Of a stretch of DNA of 64,000 nt, positions 2,657-20,386 are shown in pieces. Position numbers and translations under genes: made by a program. The number at the start of each line of letters is the position of its first letter. The first letter of the stretch is position 1. The notes under the pieces are model-generated. The model had not been told where the DNA came from and made no database searches. It was given only the letters and a program-made list of their open reading frames with translations. The DNA comes from Bacteroidia bacterium. Its GTDB lineage: Bacteria; Bacteroidota; Bacteroidia; Cytophagales; JAAEPT01. The stretch covers positions 1 to 64,000 of the forward strand of contig JAUIJC010000004.1 in assembly GCA_030431525.1 (NCBI GenBank). The letters are read 5' to 3'.

Positions 2657-3165
2657 TTCCATTGGTTTAGAAAAGTTTCCTCCTCTGGGGTGCATTTGCT
2701 GTTTTTCAGCAAGAAAAGTGATGCAACCCGTTGAAAGGAAGGGTTCTTATAGTTTGCGAGTTTTTCAAAAATGATTTTCCTGTCTTCAGCCAAATGTTTG
2801 TTGTAGCCTAAGAAGCTTGGAGCCTTTAGCTGAATACTGTACCGAATAAAGCGAATTTCTGGATTAGAAGCATCTTCTGAGATGGCTTCATCAATTTCTG
2901 CAGTTCCTTTGTTAAAGCTACTCAGTTTGGAAGTAGGCGCCCAAAGGTGGTTGGCCAAGATGACAAGCCCACCTCCGTGATAAGCTTTTTGCAAGGCCGT
3001 GGAGGCGGAAGCTGTGCTTTGAATCAATTGGTCGCAAGAACTCCGATTGTTTTCTGCAAGTTGATAAAGCTCCAGCCAATTCACGGCATTGTCCGCATTG
3101 AGCTGGAAGGGCGCCATAAGTGAGCAAAGGATAAGAAGGAGAGAGGCAAGGAAATTCAACTTCAT
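2653..3165 (-). CDS. Small secreted protein of unknown function in the carotenoid operon
   Basis: 170 residues with a clear signal peptide (hydrophobic segment about residues 6-20, then A-D-N-A), so it should act in the periplasm or at the envelope. I do not recognise a domain. Conserved-looking features are a G-G-G near residue 66 followed by V-I-L-A-N-H, and a region rich in I-R-F-I-R-Y. It is locked into the operon: its ATG overlaps the crtB stop as ATGA and its own stop overlaps the idi start the same way. This suggests a role in carotenoid production, storage or export, but that is inference from position only. Confidence 0.75.
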   Translation of the reverse strand: MKLNFLASLLLILCSLMAPFQLNADNAVNWLELYQLAENNRSSCDQLIQSTASASTALQKAYHGGGLVILANHLWAPTSKLSSFNKGTAEIDEAISEDASNPEIRFIRYSIQLKAPSFLGYNKHLAEDRKIIFEKLANYKNPSFQRVASLFLLKNSKCTPEEETFLNQWK

Positions 3166-3998
3166 AATAGATTCAGCTTGTGCCTTAGGAACACAGTTGT
3201 CAACAGTCCCAGTTTTCTACTATTCGGAATACGAATGCGTTCCTGTAGCAGTGTGGAAGCTTGTGTTGACTTGATTTTTTGGAAGAGCTTATAGTAGTAC
3301 AAGTAGGCCAAATAGACACCGAATTTGGCGGATTTTGGAAGTTCCAAAATGCCCTTGAAGCCATCCTGAAAGTCCTTGGCGATATCTTCCTCAATGCGTT
3401 TTTTGGTGCTTTCGTTCAATTTTCGGGCGTCGATATCTGGAAAGTAAGTTCGGCCCAAATCCTCCACATCAGCTTTGAGGTCACGCAGGAAGTTGATTTT
3501 TTGGAATGCCGAGCCGAGGCGCATCGCTGGATGCTTTAGGCGGTCGTATTCTTGTTGGTCGCCATTGCAGAAGATTTTCAAGCACATCAAACCAACTACT
3601 TCAGCTGAACCAAGGATATAGGTTTCGTAAGCTTTTTGGGAGTAGTCGATATCCTCCAAATCCATTTCCATGCTTTGGAAGAAAGTCTCAATCAGCTCCA
3701 AGTCGATGTCGTATTTGTTGACTGTGTATTGCAAGCTGTTCAATACAGGGTTCAAGCTGATGCCCTCCTCAATGGCCTTGTAGGTATCCTTCTTGAATTC
3801 CGTTAGGAGTGCCTTTTTATCAAAATCATGGAAGGTATCCACGATTTCATCCGCCACGCGGACAAAGCCGTAGATGTTGTGGACGTCTTGGCGGATAGAA
3901 GGGCCAAGGCATCGGATGCTCAATGAAAAGGATGTGCTGTAGGTGGTAGAAACCGTTCGGCTACAGTCTTGAGATACTTTGTCAAACAGTTGCTTCAT
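3162..3998 (-). CDS. crtB: Phytoene synthase CrtB
   Basis: Condenses two geranylgeranyl diphosphates to phytoene. Both Mg-diphosphate motifs of the squalene/phytoene synthase family are visible: A-D-E-I-V-D early in the protein and R-D-L-K-A-D-V-E-D-L-G-R in the second half, followed by the T-Y-F-P segment. I prefer the ATG at 3998 (278 residues, 17-nt overlap with crtI); an ATG at 4016 would add six residues and enlarge the overlap to 35 nt. The gene is coupled to crtI upstream and to the small secreted protein downstream. Confidence 0.94.
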   Translation of the reverse strand: MKQLFDKVSQDCSRTVSTTYSTSFSLSIRCLGPSIRQDVHNIYGFVRVADEIVDTFHDFDKKALLTEFKKDTYKAIEEGISLNPVLNSLQYTVNKYDIDLELIETFFQSMEMDLEDIDYSQKAYETYILGSAEVVGLMCLKIFCNGDQQEYDRLKHPAMRLGSAFQKINFLRDLKADVEDLGRTYFPDIDARKLNESTKKRIEEDIAKDFQDGFKGILELPKSAKFGVYLAYLYYYKLFQKIKSTQASTLLQERIRIPNSRKLGLLTTVFLRHKLNLL

Positions 3999-5466
3999 GT
4001 GGAAAGTGTTTTTCAACCTCAGAGGCTACAACTTGACCTGAGATGAGTGATGGAGGAACGCCAGGACCTGGAACGGTAAGCTGGCCAGTGTGGAAAAGGT
4101 TGGAGACCTTCTTGCTTCGCAGAGAAGGTTTTAGGTTAGCAGTTTGAGTTAATGTATTGGCCAAGCCATAGGCATTGCCCTTGAACGCATGGTAGTCTTC
4201 AATGAACTCCTTATGCGCATAGCTTTTTTTGTAAATGATATGGTCTCGGATGTTTGTCTTGGTCTTTGCCTCCAAGCGGTCGAGCATCATATTGAGGATA
4301 CGCTGGTGTTCTTTTGGATTATCCGATAATCCTGGGGCTACAGGAACGAGTAGGAACAGGTTTTCTTTTCCCTCAGGAGCCACGGATGAATCTGTTTTGG
4401 AAGGGCAACAGGTGTAGAAGAGTGGGTTTTTAGGCCATGCGGGCTCATCATAAATTTCAGAGGCATGCCCATCAAAATCCTTGTCAAAGAAAAGGTTGTG
4501 GTGTTCCAAACCAGGGATTTCCTTGTCCACGCCCAAATAGTAAATCAAGGAAGAGGGAGCCATTTTTCTGTTCTCCCAATACTTTTCTGAATAGCTTCTA
4601 AACTCAGGGGAAAGTAGTTGCTCACAGTGGTGGTAGTCTGCTCCGTTCACCACCAAATCACATTCGAATGTTCCGCGCGTGGTTTTAACTCCTATGATTT
4701 TTTTGCCTTCGTAGAAGAACCTCAATACCTCGGCATCCGTGACCACGTTTACGCCTTGCTCCCTGACGACAGTGACCATGCCCTCGATGATTTTGTGCAT
4801 GCCACCCATTGGGTACCAAGTGCCCAGTTTGATATCCGCATAGTTCATCAAACTATAGAGCGCAGGAGTATCAGCAGGTTTGGCACCAAGGAACAACACA
4901 GGAAATTCAAGCAATTGGATTAACCTGCTGTCCTTGAAGTAATGGCGGATGTGTTTCGCGATGGAGCTGAAGACCTGAAGCTTGAACACTCCTGTGGCCA
5001 ATCGCCAGTCGAGCAGTTCTGTGATGGATTGCCCTGGTCTATAAACCAAGTCATTAATGCCTACCTCATACTTGTATTTTCCTTCGTCGAGGAATTTCAT
5101 GATGGACTCACGGCTTCCAGGTTCCAAGCGTTCGCAACATTCCAAGAATTCTGCAAAGTCAGCTGGAATCTTTTCAGTGCTTCCATCTTGGAAAAAGACT
5201 TGATAGGAAGGGTCCAAGCGTTTGAGCTGGTAGAAATCACTCACTTTGTAACCAAAGCGGTTGAAGTATTTTTCAAACACCTCTGGCATCCAATACCAGC
5301 TTGGTCCCATATCAAAGGTGAATCCTTGGGCACTGAACTTACGTGCACGCCCACCCAGTGTGGCGTTCTTTTCAACTAAAGTGACTTGGTAGCCTTTTTG
5401 GGCAAGACTGGCTGATGCCGAGAGTCCGGCAAAGCCACTTCCAATCACAACGACTTTTTTGGTCAT
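3982..5466 (-). CDS. crtI: Phytoene desaturase CrtI
   Basis: A 494-residue FAD-dependent desaturase converting phytoene to lycopene. The N-terminal dinucleotide-binding motif G-S-G-F-A-G-L-S is followed by the E-K-N-x-x-x-G-G-R-A-R segment and F-D-M-G-P-S-W-Y. The C-terminus has the family FAD motif with V-P-G-P-G-V-P-P-S. The gene opens the operon with crtB, and the operator-like inverted repeat at 5541-5572 lies about 75 nt upstream of its start. I see no good TAnnTTTG box in this promoter region, which may mean that it depends on another sigma factor. Confidence 0.95.
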   Translation of the reverse strand: MTKKVVVIGSGFAGLSASASLAQKGYQVTLVEKNATLGGRARKFSAQGFTFDMGPSWYWMPEVFEKYFNRFGYKVSDFYQLKRLDPSYQVFFQDGSTEKIPADFAEFLECCERLEPGSRESIMKFLDEGKYKYEVGINDLVYRPGQSITELLDWRLATGVFKLQVFSSIAKHIRHYFKDSRLIQLLEFPVLFLGAKPADTPALYSLMNYADIKLGTWYPMGGMHKIIEGMVTVVREQGVNVVTDAEVLRFFYEGKKIIGVKTTRGTFECDLVVNGADYHHCEQLLSPEFRSYSEKYWENRKMAPSSLIYYLGVDKEIPGLEHHNLFFDKDFDGHASEIYDEPAWPKNPLFYTCCPSKTDSSVAPEGKENLFLLVPVAPGLSDNPKEHQRILNMMLDRLEAKTKTNIRDHIIYKKSYAHKEFIEDYHAFKGNAYGLANTLTQTANLKPSLRSKKVSNLFHTGQLTVPGPGVPPSLISGQVVASEVEKHFPHEATV

Positions 5467-5540: not shown

Positions 5541-5572
5541 TTGTTTAATGAAAAAGTAAAAAAGTTAAACAA
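5541..5572. promoter_or_regulatory. Candidate CarH operator upstream of crtI
   Basis: TTGTTTAAT at 5541-5549 and GTTAAACAA at 5564-5572 form an inverted repeat with 14 nt between the halves, 32 bp overall. The same half-sites with the same spacing occur at 9167-9198. It lies between crtI and carH; carH ends at 5583, so the only promoter it can control is that of crtI. Assignment to the CarH-type protein is inference. Confidence 0.6.
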
Positions 5573-5582
5573 AAACTAATCG

Positions 5583-6473
5583 TTAAGTCGACCAGTTTTT
5601 GATGGTGGATTGAATTTCAGATAGGGAATCCAAGAGCTGGAAATTCTTTGGCAACTCGAGTTTAGGTTCCAGTCCAAAGGCAGTTTTTCCTGAGATATGG
5701 AATTCAACATCCTTAAAATCAGTCGAAAGGGCGTTGATGTAGGCTTGGCAATCTTCAGTGGTCATGGTGGTGATCAATGCAAAAATGGCTCTCGTAAAGG
5801 GCCTGACAGCATAAACTTCCTTCAAGTCATTATATGGAACTGCGGAACCCAAGTAAATGGAAGGCACTCCATTTTTTCGGAGTAAATAGTTGTAAAAAAG
5901 CAGTCCCATCTCATGTTGCTCATGTTCAGGCAAAAATAAAAGAACGGAGTTCGCGTCGTTTTTTACAAATTTAAGTTGCTCAGTTTCAAAGATTATTCTG
6001 TTGCGAATGCAGTTGCTGATGAGGTGTTCATGGGCGGGAGTGATCTTGTGGGTTTGCCAAAGGATGCCGACCTGATTTAGCAATGGGTAGAGGACTTCGA
6101 CGACCGTGGTTTCAAAGCCAATCTTTTTGACGGTGCTGTTTAACGATTTTACAAAACCATCTTCGTCGAGATTAAGAGTAGCTTCCACCAGTTGGTTGAT
6201 ATACGGCTGGTAGGAATGTTGGCTCGAGGAAATGTCATCAATGGTTTGATGAATTTCCTTTTCGGACATGGCCGTAATCTTGGAAATCTTATAGCCTTGC
6301 TGGTTGAGCAGAGCCACGTTCAGGAGCTTCTTTAAATCCTGATCGGAGTATATACGTATGTTGGTGTCGGTTCGGATTGGGTCGAAAAGTTGATAGCGTT
6401 TTTCCCAGATGCGAATCGTATGCGCTTTTACTCCTGAAAGGGTTTCGAGGTCTTTGATTGAGTAATTAGCCAT
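5583..6473 (-). CDS. carH: MerR-family B12-dependent photoreceptor repressor (CarH/LitR type)
   Basis: 296 residues. Residues 4-70 are a MerR DNA-binding domain (the T-I-R-I-W-E-K-R-Y recognition segment). The rest is a helical bundle plus a cobalamin-binding Rossmann domain. The light-sensing signature of CarH is intact: W139-x9-E149-H150, and the lower-ligand motif E185-x-H187-x-x-G190. In the characterised family, adenosylcobalamin drives tetramerisation and repression in the dark, and light breaks the Co-C bond and releases DNA. The start overlaps the lycopene cyclase stop by 8 nt. Expected targets are the neighbouring carotenoid promoters. Confidence 0.9.
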   Translation of the reverse strand: MANYSIKDLETLSGVKAHTIRIWEKRYQLFDPIRTDTNIRIYSDQDLKKLLNVALLNQQGYKISKITAMSEKEIHQTIDDISSSQHSYQPYINQLVEATLNLDEDGFVKSLNSTVKKIGFETTVVEVLYPLLNQVGILWQTHKITPAHEHLISNCIRNRIIFETEQLKFVKNDANSVLLFLPEHEQHEMGLLFYNYLLRKNGVPSIYLGSAVPYNDLKEVYAVRPFTRAIFALITTMTTEDCQAYINALSTDFKDVEFHISGKTAFGLEPKLELPKNFQLLDSLSEIQSTIKNWST

Positions 6474-7167
6474 GAGTAGTTTCAGGAGATATTTGTGATT
6501 GTTTGAAGTATTCGTAAATGCTCGTGTTCATCATCAACAGGAGCAGGGCGTAGATGGTGTCCTCCACGGGAATGGTGCCGATGCGCAGGCCAAGGTTTTC
6601 GGCATTGTTGTACCAGACCACTTCCTCCTCGATGAAACTTCCTGTAAGCACACCGTTGACAATGAGGAAGGGGATAAGGCTAACCAAATAGGCCAGAAAG
6701 AATCGTCCCAAATAGGACGGGTTTTGATAAGCCTGAAAGGCCACATAGATTCCAGCTGAAATGAAGGTCAGGCTTGTGTACCATCTCGGCATGAAGAACA
6801 GCCCAAGGGCCATGAGCGTAGCGCTCAGGCCCCAAGCAAATGGTCGGGCAATGTTTCCCAGTATGTCCTTTTTCACGAAGTAATTGAGCACCTCATAGGT
6901 GAAGAGGCAGGCGTAAGGCACTGTCAGGAAGAACAGCCATTCTTCGATGGGAAGCCCAAAGGCCTCTATGCCCGTAAGATGTTTTGGGTTGAAACCCCAG
7001 ACGCCCATCTCGGTGAACCAAATATCCCAAACAATGAAAATTGCCCCTGGGATAGAAATTCCCCACAAAAGCCCTTTCCACTGCTTGGCGAATTGAATCC
7101 TAGACTCAAAACTGCGAACCAAGGGAAAGGAAATGGTGAGTAGGTTTATGAGCAAATAGGTTGACAT
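6466..7167 (-). CDS. crtY: Lycopene beta-cyclase, heterodimer-fusion (CrtYcd) type
   Basis: An integral membrane protein with about seven hydrophobic segments made of two lycopene-cyclase domains. The first repeat carries F-G-L-P-I-E-E-W-L-F-F and the second carries I-P-V-E-D-T-I-Y, the acidic P-x-E-(E/D) motifs of this non-flavin cyclase family. It cyclises lycopene ends to beta-rings. I use the ATG at 7167 (233 residues). An ATG at 7179 is equally possible, while the one at 7206 would place the start inside a terminator-like hairpin. It forms a two-gene unit with carH. Confidence 0.88.
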   Translation of the reverse strand: MSTYLLINLLTISFPLVRSFESRIQFAKQWKGLLWGISIPGAIFIVWDIWFTEMGVWGFNPKHLTGIEAFGLPIEEWLFFLTVPYACLFTYEVLNYFVKKDILGNIARPFAWGLSATLMALGLFFMPRWYTSLTFISAGIYVAFQAYQNPSYLGRFFLAYLVSLIPFLIVNGVLTGSFIEEEVVWYNNAENLGLRIGTIPVEDTIYALLLLMMNTSIYEYFKQSQISPETTHG

Positions 7168-7189
7168 GCTTACGGACATAAAAACGAGA

Positions 7190-7219
7190 AAGTGCCTCTC
7201 ATACATTGAGGGGCACCTT
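7190..7219 (-). terminator. Hairpin after the ABC1 kinase gene
   Basis: A 9-bp stem with one mismatch pairs 7192-7200 with 7208-7216, followed on the minus strand by a T-rich run. It would separate the tetR-ABC1 unit from crtY-carH. It argues against the earliest crtY start. Confidence 0.6.
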
Positions 7220-7241
7220 CAAGATAAACAGAAGGACGAAA

Positions 7242-8534
7242 TTAATGGGTTTTCACTTTTGCGCGAAGGTCATGGAGCAAATTGTACAACCCAAAGAAGG
7301 TGCGGTTCATATACAAGAAGTGTTTGGAACCACGGTTCGCATTGTATTTCCTAAGCTCTGACTTTTGTCCGTATTTCTCACCCAAGGCCACTAATTGTTC
7401 GAAATAGCTGGCATCTCCGAAGTCGAATTCATCGTGATGGAATGGCATTCCAAAGAGGTTGAGCATCTCATGGAACATGCCAGTGAAGAAGTTGATTTCC
7501 TCCTCGGAATCATCTTCTCGTAGGATTTCCAGCTTTCTGAGGTTCTTGTCGAATTTTTCTTGGTCGTGTAAATAGGCTGGTTGGGTCAACTCAAAGTAAG
7601 GCTCGTAAAAGTCTTCAGGAATTTCTTTGATACACCCAAAGTCGATAATGCCCAATTTATTGTCATCGGTGATGATGAAGTTGCCAGGGTGCGGGTCGGC
7701 ATGCACTTTTTTGAGGGAGTGCATCTGGAAGACGTAGAAGTCCCAAAGCGCCTGACCCAAGGTATTGCCCAGTTCTTGGTCCTGATTTTCCTTACAGAAA
7801 TCTGAAATCTGCCTTCCTTCAAGCCAGTCCATGGTGATAATGCGGTCGCTGGACAATTCTGGGTAGTAGGTAGGGAAGGATAAGTTGGAAATATGTCTAC
7901 AAGCCTGTGAAATCTCCATGCTCCGAGTCACCTCTAATTGGTAATCAGTTTCCTCGGTCAGCTTTTCTTCCACCTCCAAGAAATACTTCTCGGCTTCCTT
8001 ACCCTTCAGGTTGAACATCCGAACAGCGAAAGGCTTCACGATGGCTAAATCGGATTTAATGCTGTTGGCTACGCCTGGATATTGGATTTTTACGGCCAAT
8101 TTTTTTCCGTCCTTTTCAGCTTGGTGCACCTGTCCAATGCTCGCCGCGCGCACGGATTCAGCCGTGAAATGGTCGAAGAGTTCCTCAGGGTAGCATTTGA
8201 AATACTTGTGGAAGGTCTTTCGAATCAAAGCGCCTGAGAGGGGAGGCACGGAATATTGCGAGAGCGCAAATTGGTCGGTATAAGCTTTTGGCAAAATGCT
8301 CTTTTCCATGCTCAGCATCTGCGCGACTTTCAGGGCACTACCTTTCAGCTCCTTCAGGCCGTCATAGATGTCATGGGCATTGGATTCATCGAGGCGTTCA
8401 CGGGCTTCCTCTTCGGATTTTACCAGTTTGTTTCCGTAGTAGGACAAGTAGTTACCGCCTACTTTTACTCCTGTCTTGACGAGGTTGGTAGCCCGTGCGA
8501 TTTTTGAGGTCGGTATCTTGTCTAAGCTTTTCAT
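7242..8534 (-). CDS. ABC1/UbiB/ADCK-family atypical kinase
   Basis: 430 residues of the ABC1 family. Seen in order: an N-terminal family-specific helix region with L-K-V-A-Q-M-L-S (the KxGQ motif in its K-V-A-Q variant, about residues 64-74), an A-S-I-G-Q-V-H loop, the A-V-K-I-Q-Y-P-G lysine strand, H-A-D-P-H-P-G-N (catalytic loop) and I-D-F-G (metal-binding). Characterised members support ubiquinone or other prenyl-lipid metabolism. The ATG overlaps the tetR stop as ATGA. Placement inside the carotenoid cluster suggests a role in isoprenoid or lipid handling, which is inference. Confidence 0.9.
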   Translation of the reverse strand: MKSLDKIPTSKIARATNLVKTGVKVGGNYLSYYGNKLVKSEEEARERLDESNAHDIYDGLKELKGSALKVAQMLSMEKSILPKAYTDQFALSQYSVPPLSGALIRKTFHKYFKCYPEELFDHFTAESVRAASIGQVHQAEKDGKKLAVKIQYPGVANSIKSDLAIVKPFAVRMFNLKGKEAEKYFLEVEEKLTEETDYQLEVTRSMEISQACRHISNLSFPTYYPELSSDRIITMDWLEGRQISDFCKENQDQELGNTLGQALWDFYVFQMHSLKKVHADPHPGNFIITDDNKLGIIDFGCIKEIPEDFYEPYFELTQPAYLHDQEKFDKNLRKLEILREDDSEEEINFFTGMFHEMLNLFGMPFHHDEFDFGDASYFEQLVALGEKYGQKSELRKYNANRGSKHFLYMNRTFFGLYNLLHDLRAKVKTH

Positions 8535-9166
8535 AGGAATCGGTTCATTTGTTTGCCCAAGAACTTCCCGTAGTCCAACATGCTTTTGAGGGCAGGGTTT
8601 TCCTTGATGTCGAAGAACACTCGGACAGATTTTTCGATGAAAGCGTCAGTTTCCTCAAAACCTTGGGAATCGTCTTCCAACCAGAATTTCAACAAGCTCA
8701 AGAACTGAATCCACAAACCTTCGTCGCTGAGTTTGTCCAACATTTCAGTTGGAATCATATCAGGGAGGTCCTGCTTGGAAGCCAAGCTGATTTCATGAAA
8801 GAATGGCTTTAGGGCCATTTTCAAACCCTTGAGTTGGGCCAAGCCTTTCATGGACTTGTCTTGAAGGATGAAGAGCAGATAGCTTCTGTTCAATCCAAAG
8901 TTCCCGAATAGGGTAAAATAGAAGGTGAGGAGCTTTTCCTTGGCAGGCCATTCCTCGTAGGCCTCATTTTTCTTAGCTAAGGCCACAGTCTTTTCCACGA
9001 AGGATTCCCAGATGGCCAATTCCAAGTTTTTGAATGAGCCAAAATGCTTGTAGAAGGATTCCTCCTCGGCACCGTGGCTTTTACAAAACTTATATACAGA
9101 AAGGGGGCGTTTTTCCTCTTCAAGCACATAAGTCATATAGCTTTCGATGAATTGCTCCTTGGTCAT
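8531..9166 (-). CDS. TetR-family transcriptional regulator
   Basis: 211 residues with an N-terminal TetR-like helix-turn-helix (the segment K-F-C-K-S-H-G-A-E-E-E-S-F-Y-K-H-F-G-S-F at about residues 27-46) and a helical ligand domain. It is coupled to the ABC1 kinase gene by an ATGA overlap. Its start codon directly abuts the operator-like palindrome at 9167-9198, so it may itself be under CarH-type control, or it may bind that palindrome. Ligand unknown. Confidence 0.85.
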   Translation of the reverse strand: MTKEQFIESYMTYVLEEEKRPLSVYKFCKSHGAEEESFYKHFGSFKNLELAIWESFVEKTVALAKKNEAYEEWPAKEKLLTFYFTLFGNFGLNRSYLLFILQDKSMKGLAQLKGLKMALKPFFHEISLASKQDLPDMIPTEMLDKLSDEGLWIQFLSLLKFWLEDDSQGFEETDAFIEKSVRVFFDIKENPALKSMLDYGKFLGKQMNRFL

Positions 9167-9198
9167 TTGTTTAATGTTAGCGTGTAATTATTAAACAA
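9167..9198. promoter_or_regulatory. Second copy of the 32-bp operator-like inverted repeat
   Basis: TTGTTTAAT at 9167-9175 and ATTAAACAA at 9190-9198 are a perfect 9-bp inverted repeat with 14 nt between them, the same geometry as 5541-5572. It touches the tetR start codon and would cover the promoter or initiation region of tetR-ABC1. On the minus strand a TTG and a TA-rich box about 19 nt apart overlap it. Confidence 0.6.
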
Positions 9199-12814: not shown

Positions 12815-13357
12815 TCATGGATTCCAAGGGATTTCAGTGGCATTCAATCGTTTTCCTTGGTATCGCGCCAACGTGAAAAGGTAATCCGACAAGCGATTGA
12901 GGAATTGAATAATCAGCGGGTTAACCAATTCAATCTCGCTCAAGGCTACACAGCGTCGTTCAGCACGGCGGCAAATGGTACGTGCGATGTGCGTGTGTGA
13001 AACAGTCGGGTGTCCGCTTGGAAGGATAAAGGCGGTCATGGGTTCCAGTTGCTTATCCAGCTCATCAATGGCCTTTTCCAGCGTTGGAATCAGTTCATCT
13101 GAGAAAGGAGGTAAAGCGAGCTTTTGGTTTTCAGGATCGGCCGCCAACAAAGATCCACAGAGGAAAAGTGTGTTTTGAACACTTATAAGCAATTCTTTGA
13201 TGGGTTTCTCGGTTTCCAAGTCGAGGACGAGACCCAAATGGGCATTAAGCTCATCGATGGTTCCATAGGCTTCGATGCGAAGTTCTCCTTTCGAGATTCG
13301 TTTTCCTCCCCAAAGTGAGGTACTGCCTTTATCGCCTGTTTTGGTGTAGATCTTCAT
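12815..13357 (-). CDS. Cob(I)alamin adenosyltransferase, PduO type
   Basis: 180 residues. It transfers the adenosyl group of ATP to cob(I)alamin to make adenosylcobalamin. The N-terminus has the T-K-T-G-D-K-G-S-T-S-L segment and the A-Y-G-T-I-D-E-L-N-A-H segment. The C-terminal helix has the R-R-A-E-R-R motif and L-N-R-L-S-D-Y-L-F, all typical of the PduO/MMAB fold. The product is the light-sensitive cofactor that the CarH-type repressor needs, and a B12 uptake operon lies just upstream on the same strand. It is transcribed separately as far as spacing shows. Confidence 0.93.
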   Translation of the reverse strand: MKIYTKTGDKGSTSLWGGKRISKGELRIEAYGTIDELNAHLGLVLDLETEKPIKELLISVQNTLFLCGSLLAADPENQKLALPPFSDELIPTLEKAIDELDKQLEPMTAFILPSGHPTVSHTHIARTICRRAERRCVALSEIELVNPLIIQFLNRLSDYLFTLARYQGKRLNATEIPWNP

Positions 13358-17925: not shown

Positions 17926-19938
17926 TTAGTAATTCCATTGAATGCCAAGGCGCCAGTTTCTTCCAGGCATCGGGAAGCCTTTTACCACTTGGTATTGTTG
18001 GTTAAAACAATTGTTCAGCTCCGCCCTAAAGGTCATTTTCCCTTGTTTCAAAGGCAGTTTGTATGAGAAATTGATATCCTGTGTTCCCCAAGCTGGGATG
18101 ACATTTTCCGCCAAATTTTCAGGAAGGGCATAAGAGAATCCTGCGTAGAGGCCGTTCCAGTTGAAAGCCCAACGTTTTCCTTCGAAACCAAGGCCATAAG
18201 CCACTGTTTCGTGTGGGGTGTATGAAATCTGATGTCCGTAGAAAGGGGAGTTGGGGTCAGTCCTGTCCAAGGCATTTTGTAGGGTGTAGGAGAAATGCAG
18301 GCTTGGCGTAATTTTCTTGATAGGCTTTAGGCTCGCTTTGGCGAAGAGTTCCAATCCGTTGGTCACCACTTTACCCAAGTTTTGAACGGACCAGATAAAG
18401 AGGTCTTGGGTGGGAATGGCGATGATTTTATCGCGAATGCGGTAGTGGAAAGCATCGGCTTGGAGCTGTAGGGTTTCCAAAATGCCCCAATCTTCCTTGG
18501 CATAGGCGATCCCAGCGCTGAACTGTCGGGCGAGTTCGGGTTTCAGATTTGTGTTGCCCACCCTGATGTAATAGAGGTCATTAAAAGTTGGTAGGCGGTA
18601 GGCCTCTTTGTAGGCGATGCGAAGTCGGAGCTCTTTTCCCCAAAACGGTTTATAGCCAAAGGCCAAAGTAGGGGTGAGGCGGTATTTTTCGGGAGCGCTT
18701 GCGTCGGATGCTGTGGATTCCGTGATGTAGTTGGAAAGCAGACTTCCTTCCAAGCGAAATTTGTGGAGCTTGCCAATAAACCCAAGGCTTCCAAGTAGGT
18801 TATGCCGAACGGGCTGAGGGAAATTGGTTTGATTCCCCCAAAGAGTATTTACAAAGTAATCCACCGCCCCAAAAGTGGTCAGGTGCTTGGAGTGGCGCTT
18901 GCTCAATCCTGTGGAAACATAATATTCCCATTGTTGGAAACGGTCGTCAAGACCTCCCGTAGTATTCAAAAAGTCGGGGTCCACATAACGGGTGTAAGCT
19001 GAGCTGACTTTCGTCACGGACAACAAACTCCAATTTTTTTTGAGCTGTTTGGTGAATTTCAGTTGCCCGAAAAAGTCTCGGTTCCAAAGGCGTTGAGCGC
19101 TGTGCTCATTGTACAAAATCACTACACCAGGCAGACCTCGCTCAGCGTCATAGTAGTAGATTTTTGCTCTGAGTTGAGTCGAATCATTGAAGTCAATGCC
19201 ATAGTCGCCTTCAATTCTGAACCAGCTGATATCACTGTTTTTTCGGTTGACTTCTGATTGGTGGTTGCCGTTTTCAAGCAGGAAGGGATATTCGCCATTG
19301 GCGTGAGAAATGTTGCCATTAATCCCCCAAAAGCTTCTTTTGCCCTGTTTTTTTACAAAGCCCAGTCCGCCTTCAACTTGACCAAAAGAACCCGTTTGTA
19401 GGCGGGCGTTAAGGTTTAATGGTTGCGTTGGAGCAGTTGAGTTTGCAGAAACCAAATTGACGCTACCAGCATAGGCCAATGAACGCGCGGTTTGCGGTGG
19501 AGAAAAGTAGTGCTGATTATGGATTTCAACGGCTTGGAGGTTGTCCAAACCGAAACGTCCAAGGTCGATTTGTCCGCTTTGGATATCAGGCACGGCAATG
19601 CCGTCCACCATCACGCCTGTGTGGTTGGCGCCAAGGCTCCGCAGAGAAACGGTTTTGAGTCCACCGAGCCCTCCGTAGTCTTTAACTGTAACTCCAGGCA
19701 AGGATTTTACAGCCTCGGCCACGTTTTTTGCGTTGGACTTATTAAGGTCCTTTGCCTCAAGGGTGTGAACCGTGGTGAGGGTTTGTGTTGTCTCCAATCT
19801 TGGAGCGGTGCTATCGCCTAATGAAATGACCGTTTCCCCCAATTTATAGGAAAGCGTGTCAGTTTGCGATTGAGCAATTGCTCCCTGAATCAGGAAACAA
19901 CAGACAGTGAGAAATGATATGGGAATTAACCGAAGCAA
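17926..19938 (-). CDS. btuB: BtuB-like TonB-dependent cobalamin receptor
   Basis: 670 residues: signal peptide ending near A-I-A-Q (residue 23), a plug domain (about 55-165, with S-L-R-S-L-G-A-N-H-T-G-V-M-V-D-G), and a 22-strand type barrel closing with an aromatic N-W-R-L-G-I-Q-W-N-Y end. The only start that keeps the signal peptide is a TTG at 19936-19938, lying in a hairpin. The riboswitch upstream identifies the substrate as a cobalamin. Shorter than SusC-type receptors, which fits BtuB. Confidence 0.9.
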   Translation of the reverse strand: MLRLIPISFLTVCCFLIQGAIAQSQTDTLSYKLGETVISLGDSTAPRLETTQTLTTVHTLEAKDLNKSNAKNVAEAVKSLPGVTVKDYGGLGGLKTVSLRSLGANHTGVMVDGIAVPDIQSGQIDLGRFGLDNLQAVEIHNQHYFSPPQTARSLAYAGSVNLVSANSTAPTQPLNLNARLQTGSFGQVEGGLGFVKKQGKRSFWGINGNISHANGEYPFLLENGNHQSEVNRKNSDISWFRIEGDYGIDFNDSTQLRAKIYYYDAERGLPGVVILYNEHSAQRLWNRDFFGQLKFTKQLKKNWSLLSVTKVSSAYTRYVDPDFLNTTGGLDDRFQQWEYYVSTGLSKRHSKHLTTFGAVDYFVNTLWGNQTNFPQPVRHNLLGSLGFIGKLHKFRLEGSLLSNYITESTASDASAPEKYRLTPTLAFGYKPFWGKELRLRIAYKEAYRLPTFNDLYYIRVGNTNLKPELARQFSAGIAYAKEDWGILETLQLQADAFHYRIRDKIIAIPTQDLFIWSVQNLGKVVTNGLELFAKASLKPIKKITPSLHFSYTLQNALDRTDPNSPFYGHQISYTPHETVAYGLGFEGKRWAFNWNGLYAGFSYALPENLAENVIPAWGTQDINFSYKLPLKQGKMTFRAELNNCFNQQYQVVKGFPMPGRNWRLGIQWNY

Positions 19939-19961: not shown

Positions 19962-20079
19962 AGAAAAATCAGAGGGATTAGCCAACAGAGAAGCTACGGA
20001 AGGGAATCCTTCCAATAATTTCGTTTTACTGTTGACTGAAAACCTGCGAGCTTTTTCACCGAAAGCTTTGAATGAAGGT

Positions 20080-20300
20080 TGGAAACTGGCAGGTCTTCTG
20101 GCTTACCTTACTTCCGTCGCCTTCCCACCTCATTAATTGGGCAGTGGCATGATGACTGGAAGAAAAGAACTTGAGAGTGAATCTTAGACTAAGCAAATTG
20201 CTAATGTCTAAAATCTAATGTCTAAAGTCTTTTACAGGCTTACAGCTACGGGAATAGCTCCGGAATTGCACCGGATTCCCTTTTAAGGCAAAGGTCCTAC
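20080..20300 (-). promoter_or_regulatory. Cobalamin riboswitch
   Basis: On the minus strand the conserved elements appear in order: G-G-A-A-T-C-C-G-G-T-G-C with the following CCGGAGCT (20250-20285), a CCCGTAGCTGTAA-type segment, GCCACTG and TGGGAAGGCGACGG (about 20115-20150), and the B12 box GCCAGAAGACCTGCC (20087-20103). The peripheral region between the CTGTAA segment and GCCACTG is long and contains an interspersed repeat. It controls the btuB-btuG-T9SS operon, where cobalamin binding would turn expression down. Confidence 0.95.
20182..20231. repeat. TCTAATGTC-type repeat inside the riboswitch
   Basis: Contains CTTAGAC, CTAATGTCTAA and CTAATGTCTAAAG units of the family seen at four other intergenic sites, placed in the variable peripheral part of the cobalamin riboswitch rather than in its conserved core. 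Confidence 0.75.
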
Positions 20301-20386
20301 AGAGATGAAGCAATCAAGTGCCTAAGAATTAGGCTGTTTGCTTTGTTTAGTGAGTAGGGATGGACTTTGCCACCAAATTTCAGGTG

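Follow-up and report, generated by a model that had tools for sequence, protein, structure and literature searches.

Repression in the dark and release in the light are known for CarH proteins of other bacteria (PMC8156234). The operators described for them consist of three or four tandem 11 bp direct repeats, nnnnTnnACAn, and the TnnACA core is shared by the CarH operators of Thermus thermophilus, Priestia (Bacillus) megaterium and the myxobacteria (PMC9304148, PMC8156234). In Myxococcus xanthus a carotenoid operon is repressed by CarA/CarH through promoter occlusion at P_B, where B12 control resides in CarH and the operator of about 55 bp lies at the -35 region (PMC8156234). For the class II LitR proteins of Pseudomonas (PplR1, PmlR2), whose regulon includes photolyase, cryptochrome and pterin genes, light-induced genes were described as preceded by paired half-sites (PMC9758184). 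Within the Bacteroidota, light-induced crt genes were reported for Chryseobacterium lacus in a study that did not find car or lit genes (PMC7064467), and another regulator may therefore act there. An operator for a Bacteroidota CarH, or such a light regulon in that phylum, was not found in the open literature, subscription papers being outside the search, and a text search of the literature for the half-sites gave only matches that look unrelated.

The stretch of DNA analyzed here (64 kb, referred to as the window) contains a 32 bp palindrome, TTGTTTAA-N16-TTAAACAA, that was described in an earlier note on this DNA as a shared element with identical half-sites and spacing in front of two units of a carotenoid cluster. 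The window scan confirmed exact matches at 5541-5572 (TTGTTTAATGAAAAAGTAAAAAAGTTAAACAA; operator 1), between the carH stop and the crtI start, and at 9167-9198 (TTGTTTAATGTTAGCGTGTAATTATTAAACAA; operator 2), flush with the tetR ATG at 9166; the element has no strand of its own. Both sites have the same 8 bp half-sites separated by N16. The Y and R positions given in the note hold in both, and a pyrimidine occupies position 9 in 78% of the sites from relatives. Only two TTGTTTAA octamers are present on the plus strand of the window, each as part of an operator site, and no third copy was found in the 64 kb even when three mismatches were allowed, which agrees with the claim that none precedes crtD or crtY. 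According to a first-order Markov model of the window, 7.5e-5 exact copies are expected by chance per 64 kb. We propose that the palindrome serves as operator for a CarH-type B12 photoreceptor, whose gene lies at 5583-6473 on the minus strand; to this reading we assign a probability of about 0.86.

The product of this gene combines a MerR-type DNA-binding domain with cobalamin-binding domains, and shares these, the W-x9-E-H motif and the histidine of the lower axial ligand with the CarH proteins of T. thermophilus and P. megaterium. Its N-terminal domain was recognized by Pfam (PF13411, 7e-15), and the match to the T. thermophilus CarH chain in the PDB begins at residue 4, with E-values of 2.5e-19 for the single sequence and 1.5e-25 for the profile. 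The AlphaFold model (pLDDT 86) contains a four-helix bundle and a Rossmann cobalamin fold; the top Foldseek matches of this predicted structure were 5C8E/5C8D (E 4e-16), and CarH cobalamin domains matched with a TMt of ~0.8. The W-x9-E-H motif (W139, E149, H150), which lies above the cobalamin, is present in 86 of 86 relatives, and the lower axial ligand motif E/D-x-H-x-x-G reads E185-Q-H187-E-M-G190. His187 is invariant in 79 aligned relatives, while the final glycine of the motif varies, so that the full motif occurs in 59 of 86. Thus both motifs that the earlier note had called intact are present. The recognition-helix stretch KAHTIRIWE-RY is near-invariant over the 79 CarH relatives, with residue 20 being I or L and residue 25 K or Q. 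The NCBIfam equivalog NF052513 matched with 101.9 bits (E 4e-29), below its curated cut-off of 400, and by sequence the protein is a relative of this family and not a strict equivalog.

All genes of the cluster are encoded on the minus strand. The first gene downstream of operator 1 codes for a crtI-type desaturase (3982-5466; Pfam), orthologues of which are operator-linked in relatives, and its end is overlapped by crtB, encoding phytoene synthase (3162-4016; PF00494). Behind operator 2 follow tetR, encoding a TetR_C_23 regulator (8531-9166; PF17931), an ABC1/UbiB-like kinase gene (7242-8534; PF03109) that overlaps tetR by 4 bp, crtY for a CrtYcd-type lycopene cyclase (6466-7206; PF18916, TIGR03462), which is separated from the kinase gene by a 35 bp gap, and carH, which overlaps crtY by 8 bp. 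Since there is no gap between operator 2 and the start of tetR and the four genes are closely packed on one strand, this site probably also controls carH, which would place the putative regulator within a unit that it controls itself. The window also contains, a few kb away from these genes, a cobalamin adenosyltransferase gene (12815-13357, minus strand; PF01923), whose product could make the CarH chromophore AdoCbl, and a cobalamin riboswitch (20071-20333, minus strand; RF00174, 65.1 bits) upstream of a TonB-dependent receptor gene (17926-19938). Their presence in the same window suggests that the chromophore supply may be encoded nearby.

A genome-wide motif search, proposed in the earlier note as a check, yielded five exact operator copies in the 4.24 Mb genome compared with about 0.005 expected by chance and none for the reversed-pattern control. 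Most of them precede light-related genes. Apart from the two sites in the window, exact copies were located 27 bp upstream of a cryptochrome/photolyase-like pair or operon (L006:2803-3888), 84 bp upstream of an SRPBCC gene (L007) and 23 bp upstream of a cutA-like gene (L005), all assigned by Pfam. With two mismatches, seven copies were found, and three of the reversed pattern. The seven copies include a tandem pair, 35 bp apart, in front of the gene for a five-repeat fasciclin protein (L011) and a site (L008:3940-3971) before a flavin reductase-DUF2452 fusion; DUF2452 is an operator-linked target in a relative as well (L088). Two copies with two mismatches within long ORFs (C16:24152 and C73:51360) and one that overlaps the start of a 704-aa ORF (C27:43511) were set aside as probable chance matches.

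That the palindrome is a chance AT-rich sequence or a terminator-like hairpin would fit its base composition and intergenic position, but is refuted by the excess of copies over expectation and by the reversed control, by the conservation of spacing and flanks over a phylum, and by the enrichment of N16 and the co-occurrence with CarH described below; we regard it as extremely improbable. The same controls exclude a frequent occurrence of the motif in unrelated DNA, which the earlier note had named as an outcome that would speak against an operator.

Distribution of the site was followed in samples of increasing relatedness. In 296 Bacteroidota genomes the exact site occurred in 37, and all 37 encode a CarH-like protein, while it was found in none of the 233 CarH-less genomes. 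An order-level sample of 148 genomes had the site in 70 and the reversed control in three. Because phylogeny confounds the phylum-wide count, the comparison was repeated inside one genus (g85; 180 genomes), where 139 of 155 CarH-positive but only 3 of 25 CarH-negative genomes carried the site; the reversed control was present in 7 of the 180. The Fisher value for this association (4e-15) is not corrected for phylogeny and is only descriptive, as related species are not independent. Exceptions exist on both sides: 16 of the 155 CarH-positive genomes have no exact site, three CarH-less ones (G448, G449 and G554) have one each, and many carH loci in the order lack any operator within 1.5 kb. Around 29 carH genes of relatives, the N16 spacer alone was enriched (18 sites with at most one mismatch in 10 loci), and every other spacer from 6 to 26 gave no or one site. 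For the SRPBCC orthologues of the sample, 8 of the 10 closest CarH-positive genomes carry the site at a distance of 36-48 bp upstream and with no more than one mismatch. In the two closest CarH-less orthologues (L137 and L138) the copies lie 17-29 bp upstream and show three and two mismatches, a decay that would be expected once an operator has lost its reader, although two cases are suggestive only.

The TetR_C_23 protein encoded behind operator 2 might itself bind both sites, and would then control crtI as well as the operon to which it belongs. Regulators of the TetR type recognize palindromic DNA and frequently control their own genes, the tetR start codon directly follows operator 2, and at least five relatives (G011, G172, G435, G457 and G461) have a site within ~100 bp upstream of tetR. 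Against this, all 14 CarH-positive genomes of the genus that lack TetR keep the site, so it is not confined to genomes with TetR as would be expected for a TetR autoregulatory operator, and it occurs in only 1 of 22 genomes devoid of both proteins. In the order, a TetR match is lacking from at least eight genomes that carry the site, and sites cluster around carH also where no tetR is nearby. An operator of 32 bp with an N16 spacer is moreover long for a TetR protein. Among the three genomes of the genus with TetR and without CarH, two carry a single site, numbers too small for a judgement. We therefore consider binding by TetR, which the earlier note had raised as a result that would reassign the sites, to be quite unlikely. 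On these sequence comparisons the site follows CarH and not TetR, and the tetR-ABC1 unit is more plausibly a target, because the upstream site recurs in the five relatives named. A slightly less remote, still improbable explanation is that another, unlinked dimeric regulator or an alternative-sigma promoter tracks CarH only since both serve a light regulon. Co-occurrence by itself cannot name the binder, and many operators precede an ECF sigma gene, which indicates a regulatory layer beyond CarH. Yet a perfect inverted repeat with constant spacing in either gene orientation does not have the shape of an ECF promoter, a sigma-A box lies within the operator in 21 cases, and both the short distance of sites from carH and the TnnACA core speak for CarH. 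Thus the proposal of the earlier note that the CarH-type protein is the best candidate binder is supported by co-occurrence, by clustering of N16 sites around carH, by the light-response genes and by the core motif.

If CarH is the binder, its operator would differ in geometry from those described. Alignment of 107-115 distinct sites gave the consensus tTTGTTTAAY-N14-RTTAAACAAa with T/A-rich flanks, in which the TnnACA core is present as TAAACA in both half-sites, on opposite strands. The half-site core and the overlap with promoter elements are shared with T. thermophilus and P. megaterium, whereas here one inverted pair with 24 bp from centre to centre takes the place of the direct repeats. 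It is sometimes duplicated, and the distances between tandem copies cluster at 43-44 bp, roughly four turns of the helix, and at 63-64 bp, roughly six. T. thermophilus-style 11 bp repeats were rejected for these sites, as TnnACA was not markedly enriched at +-11 or +-22 over 230 oriented sites. The paired half-sites and the photolyase, cryptochrome and pterin genes of the regulon resemble class II LitR (PMC9758184), but the LitR box T(G/A)TACA-N12-TGTA(C/T)A does not match: the half-site here is TGTTTA with N18 between the hexamers, and the spacing is 24 bp instead of 18 bp. Unlike the CarH-type protein of the window, class II LitR has retained the B12 domain only in part and acts via a LOV partner.

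To define possible targets in relatives, ORFs that begin close to 107 distinct sites were clustered by similarity and the principal clusters identified, leaving out spurious single-member ORF clusters. With about 40 ORFs, a single family of ECF-type sigma factors, commonly encoded directly downstream of carH, forms the largest group. It is followed by carH (10), crtI/crtD-type desaturases (9), fasciclin (6), SRPBCC (5), DUF4397 (4) and DUF2911 (3) proteins, as well as 6-pyruvoyl tetrahydropterin synthase and DUF2805 with two members each; further targets are a DUF2867 dehydrogenase, DUF2452 and CHRD proteins. One locus (L098, 751-2460) has a tandem operator between genes for a rhodopsin and a beta-carotene 15,15'-dioxygenase, and in L054 (1501-2346), which belongs to a different family, a rhodopsin gene is preceded by a site at a distance of 67 bp. 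Light-protection genes, and among them genes for light-driven proton pumps, are thus marked by the site over much of the Bacteroidota. In carH loci such as L015, L032, L053 and L123, the sigma gene adjoins carH with an operator directly upstream. The position of the ECF sigma gene beside carH in many Bacteroidota suggests a CarH-to-sigma relay. In the genome studied here carH has no such neighbor, and the carH-linked sigma factors of relatives gave only 36%-identity matches elsewhere in it, on contigs without an exact site.

For this genome we infer direct binding by CarH, a dark/light switch with repression as its sign, an oligomeric state of the protein and autoregulation of carH. By analogy with CarH elsewhere, CarH would repress in the dark and release in the light: light would break the Co-C bond, CarH would let go of its operators, and the crtI-crtB and tetR-ABC1-crtY-carH units would be transcribed. 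As carH belongs to the second unit, we propose that CarH regulates its own expression. Through the copies of the site elsewhere in the genome, the regulon would also comprise the photolyase/cryptochrome, SRPBCC, cutA and fasciclin genes. The predicted repression of a carotenoid operon by promoter occlusion under B12 control parallels M. xanthus P_B, and the predicted light response parallels the C. lacus crt genes. For the Bacteroidota as a whole, we give somewhat better than even odds that a distinct, inverted 24 bp CarH operator runs a phylum-wide B12-sensed light regulon. Besides carotenoid genes, this regulon would comprise an ECF sigma relay and photolyases, and in two families or more also microbial rhodopsin with its retinal-forming dioxygenase. 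Rhodopsin phototrophy would then be gated by a B12 photoreceptor, and the inverted operator would be a new geometry by which CarH reads DNA. The fixed 32 bp pattern predicts targets in many genomes, and joint control of carotenoids, DNA photorepair and rhodopsin by B12 status and light can now be tested directly in abundant aquatic bacteria.

The position of the operator relative to the promoter was analyzed with the Bacteroidota sigma-A -7 box TAnnTTTG, located at -12 to -5 in Flavobacterium psychrophilum (PMC9723704). At operator positions 17-24 this box occurs in 21 oriented sites of relatives versus 1.5 expected, and all 21 face a downstream ORF that starts within 41 bp. This register would place the transcription start in the right half-site, and operator binding should therefore occlude RNA polymerase. 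A second register (-4) with 22 sites was discarded, as by our own arithmetic ~20 are expected from the column frequencies; base composition explains it and only register 17 is real. In the favored register, the two sites of the window lack a perfect TAnnTTTG. Site 1 has the near match TAGTTTTTG and site 2 the near match TATATTGT, the latter resembling the TAnnTTGY box (SM5) of PMC9723704. As with operator 2 at 9167-9198, operators lie flush with the start codon in four loci of relatives (L082, L089, L091 and L096), which together with the promoter register implies nearly leaderless crtI transcripts in Flavobacterium-like genomes.
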